From the NCBI GenBank assembly GCA_002842095.1, contig PHCB01000006.1, positions 332,044 through 396,043 on the forward strand: a stretch of DNA of 64,000 nt, read 5' to 3'. Below the pieces are notes generated by a model that was given only the letters and a program-made list of their open reading frames with translations, searched no databases and was not told the DNA's origin. Origin of the DNA: a candidate division BRC1 bacterium HGW-BRC1-1. GTDB lineage: Bacteria; Sumerlaeota; Sumerlaeia; Sumerlaeales; Sumerlaeaceae. A program made the translations under genes and the position numbers. How positions within the stretch are numbered: the first letter of the stretch is position 1; each line of letters starts with the position of its first letter. This document shows, piece after piece, positions 2,582-12,875 of this stretch.

Positions 2582-3979
2582 ATGCGAAAACGCAACGCCC
2601 GACGCCTTCTCTTTACGGTGTTCACCCTCACCGACGCCATCGGTGCCACCGCAGGGTTTGTTGCCGCTTATTTTCTGCGCTTTAACCTCGGCATCCTCGA
2701 AGTAACAAAAACCTACCGTCCCGCAGATTACCTCTTTTTCCTCCCCGTCGGGCTGGCCATCTGGCTCTTCTGGCTCGACCGCATGGGTTGCTACGACTTC
2801 CGCGACCGCGCCTTTAACCAGCAAATTCTGCGCCGCATTTCTCTCGCCGGATTTTTCGCCATGATGACTATCGTGGCCTGGCATTTCTTCGAACGAAACC
2901 TCCAGTTCTCACGGCTCATGTATCCGGTGGCCCTCGTGGGGACCATCATCGGCGTGGCGGGGTCGCGCCTGCTACTCGACCGCGTGCTGGCGCGGTTGCG
3001 CCGCACACGGCGTATCGCCGGAACTCCGGTCCTCATCCTCGGGACCAACCCCATGGCACTCAACCTCGCCCAGCGCATCCGAAGCCACGCCTACCTGGGG
3101 TTGAGCGTTGTGGGCCTGGTGCCCGTTACTCCTCACCATGCCGAGGACAACCTCGACGGATTCCCCCTGCTGGGCGATTTCGCCAACATCCGTTCCACCA
3201 TCCGCGCCCACAATGTGGAAGAGGTCATCATCGCCCAGCCCGACCTCTCGCCCCCCGAAATCCTCGACTTCATGCTCGAATGCGAAAAGGAACTCGTCGA
3301 CACCCGCGTGGTGCCCAACCTGCTGGAAAGCATGGTTGAGGAAATGCGCATGGAGCAGATCGACGGTATCCCGCTGTTCGGTCTGCGCGAAAGCCCCTTG
3401 CAGGGCTGGAGCCTCTTCTTCAAGCGCGCCATGGACATTGGCGTCAGCGCCATCGTGCTGGTCGTGCTCTCACCGATCCTGCTGCTGATTGCGCTGGCCG
3501 TGAAGCTCGGTTCGCCGGGCCCCGTGTTTTATAAACAGCGGCGCGTCGGCATCGACGGCACGCGTTTCAACATGATCAAGTTCCGCAGCATGCAAGCCGG
3601 GGCGGAGAATGAGTCGGGGCCGGTGATGGCCAAGCCCACCGACCCGCGTGTGACGCCGGTCGGGCGCTTGCTGCGCCGCACCAACCTCGACGAACTGCCC
3701 CAGTTTTTCAACGTGCTGCGGGGCGACATGAGCCTCGTGGGGCCGCGCCCCGAACGACCGCATTTCGTGAAAGAATTCCGCGAAAGCATTCCCCGATACA
3801 TGGGCCGCCACCGCGTAAAAAGCGGCATGACAGGCTGGGCCCAGGTCCACGGCCTGCGCGGCAACACCGCCATAGACGAACGAATCAAGTTTGATCTGTA
3901 CTACATAGAAAATTGGACCCTCTGGCTGGACATGAAGATACTACTCATGACCCTGAGGGCGCGGGAGAATGCTTATTAA
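2582..3979 (+). CDS. Undecaprenyl-phosphate sugar phosphotransferase (WcaJ/PssY family)
   Basis: Transfers a sugar-1-phosphate from a nucleotide sugar to undecaprenyl phosphate, the first step of an exopolysaccharide or O-antigen repeat unit at the inner membrane. The 465-residue protein has about four N-terminal membrane helices (10-132), a nucleotide-binding-like region (VLILGTNPMALNLAQRI), another helix near 285-305 and a C-terminal bacterial sugar transferase domain with FYKQRRVGIDG, IKFRSMQAGAE, TNLDELPQFFNVLRGDMSLVGPRPE and SGMTGWAQVHGLRG. Full length for the family. No strong Shine-Dalgarno precedes the ATG. It stands alone, divergent from osmC, with no polysaccharide cluster beside it. 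The sugar is unknown. Confidence 0.95.
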   Translation: MRKRNARRLLFTVFTLTDAIGATAGFVAAYFLRFNLGILEVTKTYRPADYLFFLPVGLAIWLFWLDRMGCYDFRDRAFNQQILRRISLAGFFAMMTIVAWHFFERNLQFSRLMYPVALVGTIIGVAGSRLLLDRVLARLRRTRRIAGTPVLILGTNPMALNLAQRIRSHAYLGLSVVGLVPVTPHHAEDNLDGFPLLGDFANIRSTIRAHNVEEVIIAQPDLSPPEILDFMLECEKELVDTRVVPNLLESMVEEMRMEQIDGIPLFGLRESPLQGWSLFFKRAMDIGVSAIVLVVLSPILLLIALAVKLGSPGPVFYKQRRVGIDGTRFNMIKFRSMQAGAENESGPVMAKPTDPRVTPVGRLLRRTNLDELPQFFNVLRGDMSLVGPRPERPHFVKEFRESIPRYMGRHRVKSGMTGWAQVHGLRGNTAIDERIKFDLYYIENWTLWLDMKILLMTLRARENAY

Positions 3980-9496: not shown

Positions 9497-10404
9497 GCGA
9501 CAATACCACTACCACCCAATCCGCCGGCACAGCCGTTGCCCAAGGCCCGACCGCCGCAACCCGCAAAAGCTATAAAGGCTCCGCCAAGGTCACGTGGTGC
9601 CCGGGCTGTGGAGACTACGGCGTGCTGGCTTTCCTCGACAAAGCTCTCGTCGCCTATGGCCGACCCGAACACGACATCGCCGTTATATCCGGCATCGGAT
9701 GCTCCAGCCGCTTCCCCTACTTCATGAACACCTATGGTTTCCACACCTTGCATGGTCGTGCGTTGCCCGTGGCCACCGGTCTGAAACTCGCGCGGCCCGA
9801 CCTCACCGTCATCGCCACGGGCGGAGACGGCGATGCGCTCGCCATTGGTGGCAATCACTTTTTCCACACCATGCGCCGCAACCCCGACCTCACCTACATC
9901 CTGATGGACAACCAGATCTACGGCATGACCAAAGGCCAGGCCGCCCCCACCAGCAAACTCGGCATGCACAGCAAGAGTTCCCCCCTGGGCACCATCGAGG
10001 AACCGGTCGATCCCGTCTGGGCGGCCCTCACCATGGGAGCGACCTTCGTTGCCCAGGCCGCCAGCCACGATGCAACCTCACTGACCGAACTCATTCTTGC
10101 AGGTCTGCGCCACCCGGGCATGGCGTTCATCAACTGCCTCAGCCCATGCGTTACCTTCAATGCCGGCATGGATAAAAATTACTTCAAGGAACGCTCCACC
10201 CCCCTGCCCGAGGGCTACGATCCCACCGATTACGGTCAGGCGTTGAACCTGATGCACAACGCCAGGGATTCATTCCCGCTGGGCCTGATCTATACCACCC
10301 GTCGCCCCACGCTGCACGAACGGGCCGAAGCCATCGGAGCCGCCATCAAACCCGGCACCGCCCCCCCCGCCGACGTGGAAAGCATCATGGCGGAGTTTAT
10401 GTAA
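9493..10404 (+). CDS. korB: 2-oxoacid:ferredoxin oxidoreductase, beta subunit
   Basis: The thiamine-diphosphate-binding partner of KorA, 303 residues. Shows the cysteine motif WCPGCGDYGVLAFLD (about 36-50), GIGCSSRFPYFMNTYGFHTLHGRALPVATG as TEENSS-like blocks, and the ThDP/Mg motif GDGDALAIGGNHF with NQIYGMTKGQ. Length fits KorB. Coupled to korA by ATGA at 9493-9496. It is followed by a CAAAG-type repeat and then the ilv leader. Confidence 0.95.
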   Translation: MSDNTTTTQSAGTAVAQGPTAATRKSYKGSAKVTWCPGCGDYGVLAFLDKALVAYGRPEHDIAVISGIGCSSRFPYFMNTYGFHTLHGRALPVATGLKLARPDLTVIATGGDGDALAIGGNHFFHTMRRNPDLTYILMDNQIYGMTKGQAAPTSKLGMHSKSSPLGTIEEPVDPVWAALTMGATFVAQAASHDATSLTELILAGLRHPGMAFINCLSPCVTFNAGMDKNYFKERSTPLPEGYDPTDYGQALNLMHNARDSFPLGLIYTTRRPTLHERAEAIGAAIKPGTAPPADVESIMAEFM

Positions 10405-10521: not shown

Positions 10522-10623
10522 ATGCAATCCACAAACTACGCAACCACCTCTGCCACAGTGCCCGCCTCCCCGCTGGCGCTCGTAGCTGTAGTACGCGTAG
10601 TACTTTTGGCCATCGCGCCATAG
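10522..10623 (+). CDS. Branched-chain leader peptide (ivbL-like) controlling ilvBN
   Basis: A 33-codon open frame (ATG 10522, TAG 10621) whose second half reads LALVAVVRVVLLAIAP. Ten of those sixteen residues are Val, Leu or Ile. E. coli IvbL ends VVVVRVVVVVGNAP, strikingly similar in composition, the central Arg and the final AP. It lies 28 bases before a terminator hairpin and 175 bases before ilvB, and encodes two segments of an alternative-pairing attenuator. Scarce charged Val/Leu/Ile tRNA would stall the ribosome and permit readthrough. There is no obvious Shine-Dalgarno, the main weakness. Confidence 0.85.
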   Translation: MQSTNYATTSATVPASPLALVAVVRVVLLAIAP

Positions 10624-10690
10624 CGGGGATCGCATAACACAAGGTTTGCGGCCCCTGCCGGCGCGATAGCCGGCGGGGGCTTCTTCTTGT
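10568..10690 (+). promoter_or_regulatory. Transcription attenuator of ilvBN (alternative RNA hairpins)
   Basis: Mutually exclusive pairings can be drawn. Pause hairpin 1:2: CCCCGCTGGCGC (10568-10579) with GCGCC (10615-10619) plus AGCGGGG (10622-10628), 12 bp with a two-base bulge. Antiterminator 2:3: GGGG (10625-10628) with CCCC (10652-10655), GC (10623-10624) with GC (10657-10658), GCGCC with GGCGC (10660-10664). Terminator 3:4: 10651-10680 followed by a T-rich tract. Segment 1 lies in the leader codons and segment 2 covers the leader stop, the classic geometry. Pairings are by eye; energies were not calculated. Confidence 0.8.
10651..10690 (+). terminator. Intrinsic terminator of the ilv attenuator
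   Basis: GCCCCTGCCGGC (10651-10662), a six-base loop, and GCCGGCGGGGGC (10669-10680): a 12-bp stem with one G-U pair, followed by TTCTTCTTGT. It sits between the leader peptide stop and ilvB, so termination here must be relieved for ilvBN expression. Confidence 0.85.
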
Positions 10691-10798
10691 CTGGCCCCGA
10701 TTCTCTCCCCCGCCGGCGGCCCCTTCCCCTCGCGCCGCCCGGGCGGCCTCCCCAAACCACCATTTTGCAGGTTTCACATTACGAAGGAGAGCATCACC

Positions 10799-12478
10799 AT
10801 GAACATGACTGGCGCAGAACTCATCATGAGGCTGCTGGAACGGCAGGGCATCACCACCATCGCTGGAATCCCCGGCGGCGCAAACCTGCCGATGTATGAC
10901 GCATTTCACACCAGTTCCATCCAGCACATTCTCGTGCGTCATGAACAGGCCGCCGGCTTCATGGCCCAGGGCATGGCGCGCACCACCGGACTGCCCGCCG
11001 TCTGTTTCGCCACCAGCGGACCGGGTGCCACGAACATCCTCACCGCCATCGCCGACGCGAAGCTCGACTCCGTTCCCGTGATCTGCATCACCGGTCAGGT
11101 GCCCACGGGCCTCATCGGGTCCGACGCCTTTCAGGAAATCGACACCTACGGCCTCACGGTCCCCATCACCAAACACAACTATCTGGTGCGCACGGTGGAG
11201 GAACTGCTGACGGTCATCCCCGACGCCTTCCGCATTGCCATGAGCGGCCGCCCCGGTCCCGTGGTGATCGATGTGCCCAAGGACGTGCAGTCGGCCAGGA
11301 TCGAGTTCGACGCCTACCCCGAACCCGGCGCGCCCGACGCACCGCCCCGCTTCTCCCACGACGACATCTTCCGCGCTGCCGGTCTGATCAACGCCTCCGA
11401 GAAACCGGTCATCTACGCCGGCGCCGGCATCATCGGCTCCAACGCCGCACCCGCGCTCCACGCGTTGGCTGAAAAGGCATCCATCCCCGTTGCATGCACC
11501 CTGCTGGGACTGGGTTCCATGCCCGATTCCCACCCGCTGTACCTCGGCATGCTGGGCATGCACGGCTCGCGCGGCACGAACATGATCATGGAAGAATGCG
11601 ACCTGGTCATCGCGCTGGGCGTGCGGTTCGACGACCGTGCCACCGGCAAGGCCGCCGAGTTCTGCCCCAAGGCACACATCATCCACATCGACATCGACCG
11701 CTCCGAGCTGGGCAAAATTAAGCTGCCCATGCTGGGCATCGAGGCCGACGTGCGGCTCGCCATCGAGGCGCTGCTGCCCGAGGTGGGTGCCGACAAACGC
11801 TCCGATTGGACCGCCCGCACCACCGAACTGCGCGAGGCCCACCCCATGGCCATGCCCGGCGCCGACGACCTGCTGACGCCCTACGGCATCATCCGGCAAA
11901 CCGCCGCGATGCTCGACGACGACGCCATCATTTCCACCGACGTGGGCCAGCACCAGATGTGGACCGCACAAGCGTACCCATTCACATACCCGCGCCAGTG
12001 GTTGACCTCCGGCGGGCTCGGCACCATGGGCTTCGGCCTGCCCACCGCCATCGGCGCTGCAGTCGCCTTCCCCGAGCGCACATCCGTCTGCTTCAGCGGC
12101 GACGGCAGCATCCTCATGAACATTCAGGAACTGGCCACCGCCGTGGAGATTAACGCCAACGTGAAAATCGTGTTGCTGAACAACGGCCATCTGGGCCTCG
12201 TGCGCCAGCAGCAGGAACTGTTCTACGGGGCGCGCTACATGGCGTCGCGGTTCGAGGCGCGGCCCGATTTCGCCACCATCGCCCGCGGCTTTGGCATGGC
12301 CGCCTGCGACCTGGCCAACGAAGCCAACCCCGCCGAGGCCCTGGCCGCCGCCCTGCGCCAGCCCGGACCCTGCTTCATCAACGTGCCCATCGCCGAGGAA
12401 GACTGCGTCTTCCCCATGGTGCCCCCCGGCGCCGCCAACCATACCATGATAGGAGGAGAGACCCATGCAACAGCGTGA
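10799..12478 (+). CDS. ilvB: Acetolactate synthase, large (catalytic) subunit
   Basis: ThDP- and FAD-dependent enzyme that condenses pyruvate with pyruvate or 2-oxobutyrate in valine, leucine and isoleucine synthesis. 559 residues: N-terminal ThDP domain with catalytic Glu49 (VRHEQAAGFMAQG) and FATSGPGATN, a central FAD-binding domain (VIYAGAGII, LGVRFDDRATG), and a C-terminal ThDP domain with GDGSILMNIQELATA and NNGHLGLVRQQQELF. GAAGGAGAG precedes the ATG. Preceded by the attenuator; overlaps ilvN by 14 bases. The ivbL-type leader fits biosynthetic control. Confidence 0.96.
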   Translation: MNMTGAELIMRLLERQGITTIAGIPGGANLPMYDAFHTSSIQHILVRHEQAAGFMAQGMARTTGLPAVCFATSGPGATNILTAIADAKLDSVPVICITGQVPTGLIGSDAFQEIDTYGLTVPITKHNYLVRTVEELLTVIPDAFRIAMSGRPGPVVIDVPKDVQSARIEFDAYPEPGAPDAPPRFSHDDIFRAAGLINASEKPVIYAGAGIIGSNAAPALHALAEKASIPVACTLLGLGSMPDSHPLYLGMLGMHGSRGTNMIMEECDLVIALGVRFDDRATGKAAEFCPKAHIIHIDIDRSELGKIKLPMLGIEADVRLAIEALLPEVGADKRSDWTARTTELREAHPMAMPGADDLLTPYGIIRQTAAMLDDDAIISTDVGQHQMWTAQAYPFTYPRQWLTSGGLGTMGFGLPTAIGAAVAFPERTSVCFSGDGSILMNIQELATAVEINANVKIVLLNNGHLGLVRQQQELFYGARYMASRFEARPDFATIARGFGMAACDLANEANPAEALAAALRQPGPCFINVPIAEEDCVFPMVPPGAANHTMIGGETHATA

Positions 12479-12875
12479 CCCCCACGAAGAGATGAACCCC
12501 AACGAAGCCGACCACGACGAAGCCACCTGCGAGGGCGGATGCTGCAGCAAGGGCGCCGCCTACGACCCGCCCGCCCCCAAGGCCCCCGCCGGCACCGTGG
12601 TGCCCACCGTGGTGCTGCGCCTGAGCGTGCGCAACCACCCCGGCGTGATGAGCCACGTCTGCGGAATGTTCGCCCGCCGCGCCTTCAACCTGGAGGGGAT
12701 ACTAGTCCTCCCGGTGATGGACGGCACCACCAGCACCATGCTCCTCCTCGTGCACGACGACCGCCGCCTCGACCAGCTCGAGCGCCAGTTGTCGAAGCTG
12801 GAAGACGTGCTGGAAATCCACCGGGAAGCCACCGGCCACCGAGCCTTCGCCGCCGTGGCGGAGTTCATCGGATAG
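12465..12875 (+). CDS. ilvN: Acetolactate synthase, small regulatory subunit (short IlvN type)
   Basis: Regulatory subunit giving valine feedback to IlvB. 136 residues with one ACT domain (about 46-125: VVLRLSVRNHPGVMSHVCGMFARRAFNLEGI, then QLSKLEDVLEIHRE). That is the short enterobacterial IlvN class rather than the longer IlvH class. Unusual is a ~40-residue acidic N-terminal extension carrying the cysteine cluster CEGGCC (about 22-27) before the ACT fold. TAGGAGGAGAG, inside the end of ilvB, precedes the ATG, so translation is coupled. Followed at once by a strong terminator. Confidence 0.92.
   Translation: MQQRDPHEEMNPNEADHDEATCEGGCCSKGAAYDPPAPKAPAGTVVPTVVLRLSVRNHPGVMSHVCGMFARRAFNLEGILVLPVMDGTTSTMLLLVHDDRRLDQLERQLSKLEDVLEIHREATGHRAFAAVAEFIG

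Follow-up and report, generated by a model that had tools for sequence, protein, structure and literature searches.

Most descriptions of the ivbL attenuator concern enteric bacteria. The locus reported here, which lies in a 64,000-nucleotide stretch of DNA (the window in what follows) from a genome of another phylum, raises the question of whether a device of the same kind controls ilvBN in this genome and, if so, whether it arose there independently. Both points had been raised in a first-pass annotation, which claimed a complete ivbL-type attenuator in front of ilvBN and left two options for its origin, convergence or descent from an old conserved device. On the basis of the leader open reading frame (ORF), the alternative pairings and their covariation, an in silico stall switch, the linkage to acetolactate synthase isozyme I (AHAS I) and shared sequence, we consider it very probable that ilvBN is controlled by a ribosome-mediated attenuator of the ivbL type, most likely homologous to that of the Enterobacteriaceae.

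The leader ORF (10522 to 10623; forward strand, as are all features of the locus described below) is situated between korB, which ends at 10404, and ilvB, which starts at 10799. It runs from ATG to TAG over 33 codons and encodes the peptide MQSTNYATTSATVPASPLALVAVVRVVLLAIAP, ending in LALVAVVRVVLLAIAP-stop. At its 3' end it reads CTG GCG CTC GTA GCT GTA GTA CGC GTA GTA CTT TTG GCC ATC GCG CCA TAG, in which the nine codons from the first GTA to TTG (10582 to 10608) would be the regulatory ones, comprising Val21, Val23, Val24, Val26, Val27, Leu28 and Leu29. A Val-rich leader combined with a terminator was found in 0.0% of mononucleotide shuffles of AHAS I upstream regions, which excludes a chance origin.

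Downstream, ilvB (10799 to 12478; 559 amino acids) is preceded by the Shine-Dalgarno sequence AAGGAG (10784 to 10789) and overlaps ilvN (12465 to 12875) by 14 bases. IlvB scores 918.9 bits against NF006016 (PRK08155; cut-off, 870), does not reach the thresholds of the models shown for other named isozymes and groups with the AHAS I of Enterobacteriaceae in the tree. IlvN, with a single ACT domain like that of E. coli IlvN, has as its best PDB match the small subunit of E. coli isozyme 1 (2lvw; E = 5.6e-28). At 127.9 bits, it misses the cut-off of NF006036 (128) by 0.1 bit; the protein either carries an N-terminal extension or had its start codon set too far upstream. Judged by these models and the tree, the genes downstream of the leader are the enterobacterial isozyme AHAS I rather than a generic ilvBN pair. 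The genome also encodes a second acetolactate synthase that belongs to a different type (L012), and for which the screen of upstream regions recorded no Val-rich leader.

Four segments account for the predicted pairings. Segment 1 (CCCCGCTGGCGC; 10570 to 10581) pairs with segment 2 (10612 to 10629), which consists of the final leader codons, the stop codon and the bases beyond it, to give the protector hairpin 1:2; alternatively, segment 2 pairs with segment 3 (10650 to 10667), which comprises the 5' arm of the terminator and most of its loop, to give the antiterminator. Segment 4 (10669 to 10681) is the 3' arm of the intrinsic terminator and is followed by a T-rich tail (10682 to 10691). The 12 pairs that had been claimed for hairpin 1:2 are indeed present (10570 to 10581 with 10616 to 10629; -25.5 kcal/mol as a hairpin), together with a 2-nucleotide bulge. 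The terminator 3:4 (10650 to 10681) is likewise present, albeit with 13 pairs rather than 12 (11 of them G-C), a loop of 6, the tail TCTTCTTGTC and an energy of -31.1 kcal/mol. Hairpin 2:3 (10612 to 10628 with 10653 to 10667) reaches -34.0 kcal/mol. The fold of the 179-nucleotide region is 3.7 standard deviations more stable than those of dinucleotide shuffles, none of 200 of which equalled it. As for the earlier claim that the three hairpins are mutually exclusive, 2:3 is incompatible with either of the others, but in the free transcript 1:2 and 3:4 coexist, which is precisely what attenuation requires. With the run of Val and Leu codons, the switchable pairings and the terminator all present, the description of a complete attenuator holds.

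The effect of a ribosome on these pairings was evaluated by setting it at each leader codon in turn and folding the RNA that lies 3' of the ribosome footprint and nothing else. When the A-site is anywhere from Val21 to Val26, 2:3 keeps 18 to 20 pairs and 3:4 keeps 1 to 2; at Val27 and Leu28, the terminator is already ahead; and from Leu29 to the stop codon, the terminator has about 13 pairs and the antiterminator 0 to 2. Folding with and without a ribosome at the Val and Leu codons, a check proposed in the first-pass annotation, thus gave the expected switch, with a stall on valine leading to the antiterminator and a ribosome at the stop codon leaving the terminator only. The border of the switch depends on the chosen transcript end by 1 to 2 codons: with the end placed 6 nucleotides earlier, it shifts to about Arg25/Val26. 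From these borders, valine is the likely signal, and the Leu codons at 10573 and 10579, 5' of the run, are possible secondary inputs. When full transcripts of the relatives described below were scanned at equilibrium, the terminator was favoured in most of them, including E. coli, the proven case. The switch in those relatives must therefore be kinetic and, since the full-length scan is uninformative for most of them, partial transcripts were used instead. These put the switch towards the 3' end of the run of Val codons in all groups, with Val making up 52% of the codons before it and 11% of those after it.

Taken together with the gene layout, the pairings suggest the following mechanism. Transcription would start just 5' of the leader, and the quantity sensed would be charged tRNA-Val, mainly the isoacceptor reading GTA, and to a lesser extent charged tRNA-Leu. 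When Val-tRNA is scarce, the ribosome would stall between codon 21 and about codon 26, covering segment 1, so that 2:3 pairs and RNA polymerase continues into ilvBN. When it is ample, the ribosome would either reach the stop codon and cover segment 2 or depart, allowing 1:2 to form; with segment 2 occupied in either way, terminator 3:4 would form and transcription would end before ilvB. Leader translation and regulation in vivo are presumed in this scheme.

A simpler function for the region would be that of a constitutive terminator, or a translated upstream ORF, which insulates ilvBN from korAB and senses no valine. There is indeed a strong terminator between korB and ilvB, and a scan of this genome and its family with the consensus sigma-70 promoter identified nothing convincing. 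Such an insulator would, however, have no use for the Val run, for the rare-codon bias and for the covariation of 2:3 described below, and homologous loci in several phyla retain both the leader and the alternative pairings; we therefore regard this explanation as extremely improbable. Elsewhere, eight loci of Verrucomicrobiota and two of Myxococcota have a TTGACA-like box, in each case a consensus match, 37 to 48 nucleotides 5' of the leader ATG, a position from which the transcript is predicted to start 2 to 12 nucleotides before the leader ATG.

The leader lacks a Shine-Dalgarno sequence, as had been noted before, and its translation is therefore something that we infer. The calculated Shine-Dalgarno energy is +0.9 kcal/mol for the leader versus -8.8 kcal/mol for ilvB, and the absence recurs in most related leaders: the means are -2.8 (leader) versus -9.1 kcal/mol (ilvB) within the phylum of this genome and -1.2 versus -6.5 kcal/mol in Pseudomonadota outside the Enterobacteriaceae. 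In Verrucomicrobiota, the leader has no good Shine-Dalgarno sequence and ilvB mostly lacks one too. A precedent exists in Corynebacterium glutamicum, for which work cited in PMC10272879 describes a leader peptide formed without a ribosome binding site. Read-through of the leader's TAG codon as pyrrolysine was considered and rejected, the genome containing no pylS above the cut-off and TAG ending 5 of the 22 window ORFs counted. ARAGORN did call a Pyl(CTA) tRNA in this search (L182:68-142; G000:C2:82558-82629), which is probably a degenerate tRNA-Arg(TCT).

All five Val codons of the leader run are GTA. Within the phylum of this genome, GTA accounts for 32 of 50 leader Val codons (64%) versus 7 of 243 in ilvB (3%; p = 3e-23). 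Outside it, the bias recurs, with a GTA share of leader Val codons of 50% in Pseudomonadota other than Enterobacteriaceae, 35% in Myxococcota and 19% in Verrucomicrobiota, whereas Enterobacteriaceae do not show it. One tRNA-Val gene each with the anticodons UAC, CAC and GAC was found in this genome, nine long tRNAs lying outside the scan. In theory, regulatory codons are expected to be those whose reader loses its charge first (PMC1183508).

Compared with known systems, the locus most resembles ivbL of E. coli and other Enterobacteriaceae. Shared features are a leader with a Val run, an Arg within that run and a terminal Ala-Pro (the IvbL ending quoted in the first-pass annotation, VVVVRVVVVVGNAP, is the one present in the E. 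coli locus, L021), a stop codon inside segment 2, a terminator core that is CCCCGCCGGCGC or close to it, AHAS I as the downstream isozyme and the same stall geometry. Differences are that the Val run is shorter here and is followed by Leu28 and Leu29, that its Val codons are all GTA rather than GTC and GTG, that no Shine-Dalgarno sequence precedes the leader whereas E. coli has a weak one, that hairpin 1:2 is strong and 2:3 and 3:4 are nearly isoenergetic, and that the gene neighbourhood and the phylum are not those of ivbL. The C. glutamicum ilvBNC attenuator (ilvB-II motif) likewise combines a leader rich in branched-chain amino acid (BCAA) codons with three hairpins and no ribosome binding site (PMC10272879, PMC11857589), but its leader, MTIIRLVVVTARRLP, is dissimilar and its operon is ilvBNC. 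The ilvB-OMG RNA motif, reported from various phyla, also features an upstream ORF rich in BCAA codons before ilvB (PMC10272879); no Rfam match of this type was obtained in the region or the scanned relatives, a result that presupposes that the family is in the Rfam copy scanned.

A structured 5' region in front of a biosynthetic operon might also be a small-molecule riboswitch or a member of another known RNA family. Rfam scans of the window and the relatives yielded no matching family over the attenuator at the gathering threshold, the sub-threshold matches being only a miRNA and a ribozyme model. A T-box would read out tRNA charging as well, but it does so by binding uncharged tRNA directly and has no leader peptide; no match to RF00230 was found at the attenuator, while the same search detected the T-box of Fusibacter paucivorans (L024), which served as positive control. 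We accordingly give an RNA family of this kind almost no weight and retain the leader-peptide attenuator.

To what extent the attenuator accompanies AHAS I was assessed by whole-genome IlvB searches, with a threshold chosen to select this isozyme. AHAS I was present in 8 of 40 genomes of the phylum under study, in 13 of 387 from the phylum to which an Opitutaceae locus belongs, in 2 of 282 from that of a Myxococcales locus and in 5 of 300 from the order that includes Azospira. Further loci came from a scan of contigs and belong to Enterobacteriaceae, Rhodocyclaceae and other Pseudomonadota, as well as to one Bacteroidota and one Bacillota. The resulting 43 AHAS I loci represent the phylum of this genome, Verrucomicrobiota, Pseudomonadota, Myxococcota, Bacteroidota and Bacillota. 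A Val-rich leader was found in 41 of the 43 distinct AHAS I upstream regions, compared with 15 of 69 other ilvB loci and 5 to 9% of shuffles. All 41 leaders have a terminator hairpin on their 3' side, which in the two Myxococcota loci has no T-run. The terminators of these two loci and of L006 were assigned by eye; a fold-based finder was used because a finder allowing no mismatch missed bulged terminators (23 of 43). The two AHAS I loci without such a leader are that of F. paucivorans, where a T-box precedes the AHAS I operon, an exchange of the sensing device on the same AHAS I gene, and that of an Accumulibacter-like genome (L045/L105), in which the leader has decayed. Breznakibacter xylanolyticus (L106, also L057) carries two complete Val-leader attenuators in tandem in the 420 bases upstream of ilvB; the leaders end in SVVVVVVSLRIIRRIVA and SVVVVVVCQPPQG, and each has its own matching terminator and a strong cognate 2:3.

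The comparison with relatives that the first-pass annotation had proposed bears directly on the origin of the device, as the leader is conserved and the pairing is kept by compensatory change. Cognate 2:3 pairings average -25.8 kcal/mol versus -20.6 kcal/mol when partners are swapped between loci; none of 20,000 permutations equals the cognate average, and the advantage always persists with one locus per group. When 15 sequences are aligned, the antiterminator contains 18 two-sided-change cells versus 8.7 in shuffles (0 of 500); most of these cells fall in column pairs 37:100, 38:99 and 39:98, which vary on both sides, and the signal falls sharply when slid. The terminator covaries likewise, and the protector 1:2 has a smaller cognate advantage (permutation p = 0.0001). 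A nucleotide profile built without the phylum of this genome matches the window at 10574 to 10682 with an E value of 1.2e-8 (next window match, 0.01) and also matches 8 of 8 sites of the phylum, and the reverse profile search recovers every Pseudomonadota site tested. The core common across phyla is GCGCC.TAG.GGG / CCCCGCCGGCGC, and the terminal Ala-Pro-stop is conserved because of the RNA, in which GCGCC base-pairs with GGCGC in the arm of the terminator. With these codons inside segment 2, conservation of the peptide and of the RNA can be assessed independently only to a limited degree, and some of the profile similarity may stem from shared constraints.

In the IlvB tree, the Enterobacteriaceae are a shallow clade that neighbours Rhodocyclaceae and related sequences and is nested in a larger set composed of Verrucomicrobiota sequences and sequences from the phylum of this genome. 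With thin taxon sampling, Verrucomicrobiota as a single clade is rejected (AU p = 2e-5), and the phylum of this genome as a single clade is borderline (AU p = 0.046). The sequences from Bacteroidota, Bacillota and Myxococcota sit on long branches and are placed with little certainty, that of Bacteroidota falling outside the AHAS I side. As read from this tree, the enterobacterial ilvBN would be a derived tip and the E. coli version a late branch.

Could a generic BCAA leader nevertheless have arisen here independently, its likeness to IvbL following from shared constraints such as Val codons and a GC-rich terminator? BCAA leaders have repeatedly originated in this setting: two Spirochaetota loci (L029 and L030), a Fibrobacterota locus (L040) and others have such leaders with unrelated sequences, so that attenuation of ilvB by a leader probably arose more than once, and the published ilvB motifs of Corynebacterium and Leptospira appear distinct too. 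(At L029, L030 and L040, the BCAA-rich leaders and their terminators precede ilvB genes that are not clearly AHAS I.) Against independent origin at the present locus stand the nucleotide profiles, which match the exact place across phyla in both directions, the common core, the near-complete linkage to one isozyme and the fact that the AHAS I genes are one family across the phyla concerned. We therefore consider convergence improbable; given the profile matches, the cross-phylum covariation, the linkage to AHAS I and the tree, the second of the two options is favoured, namely, an old conserved device that most likely shares its ancestry with enterobacterial ivbL and moves along with its gene. 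Under this reading, the attenuator would have passed on jointly with the AHAS I genes, by inheritance as well as by transfer.

A covariance model identified the attenuator in every AHAS I genome of the phylum; as the model was built with sequences from that phylum, a match is counted as a find only where its locus was absent from the alignment. One such find, at 60.5 bits (L144:284-403), is in a genome of the same class (G016), where it precedes an ilvH-ilvB operon of the AHAS III type. The IlvB genome search did not find AHAS I in this genome. The position before an AHAS III operon suggests that the attenuator has moved to another isozyme or was kept while its gene was replaced. The leader at this site ends in LLLVAVLVATCAP.

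A published survey reported AHAS I only in gamma-proteobacteria, with the exception of Desulfovibrio and one firmicute (PMC5727371). We observed AHAS I together with the attenuator in Verrucomicrobiota, Myxococcota, beta-proteobacteria and a small further phylum. On balance, we lean toward regarding leader, attenuator and AHAS I as one transferable cassette that predates the Enterobacteriaceae and has travelled from phylum to phylum in one piece, E. coli ivbL being a late copy. Outside the Enterobacteriaceae, this cassette would largely rely on translation free of Shine-Dalgarno sequences, with a near-leaderless mRNA in Verrucomicrobiota and Myxococcota, and in one genome of the same class it would stand before a different AHAS isozyme. 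Both the mechanism and the kind of element are known; what is new is the breadth of the distribution, the link to a single isozyme, the bias towards GTA and the weakness of the initiation signals. Here, a ribosome-mediated attenuator can be traced as a homologous element across phyla, which turns the age and horizontal transfer of attenuators, as well as the choice of leader codons, into directly testable questions.

The remaining, weaker matches to the covariance model include some with BCAA leaders (L135) and others that are ordinary terminators. At L145 (G032), a leader, MNTVAKDLSLLPVAALDGRLAGLVLVVAIIIVATMPSGATG, and a terminator precede another acetolactate synthase, the product of a minus-strand gene ending at 3219; this is a candidate second BCAA attenuator in the phylum. 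Finally, at L141/L146 (G010:C234, about 12487 to 12596), a short leader, MNRIDHMPHRSITPVAVCVVVCGFVP, and a terminator are found in front of a gene starting MQKNTVKKVGIIRCQQTEDMCPG, and the Val and Cys codons of this leader suggest a cysteine- or valine-responsive attenuator of a different gene.
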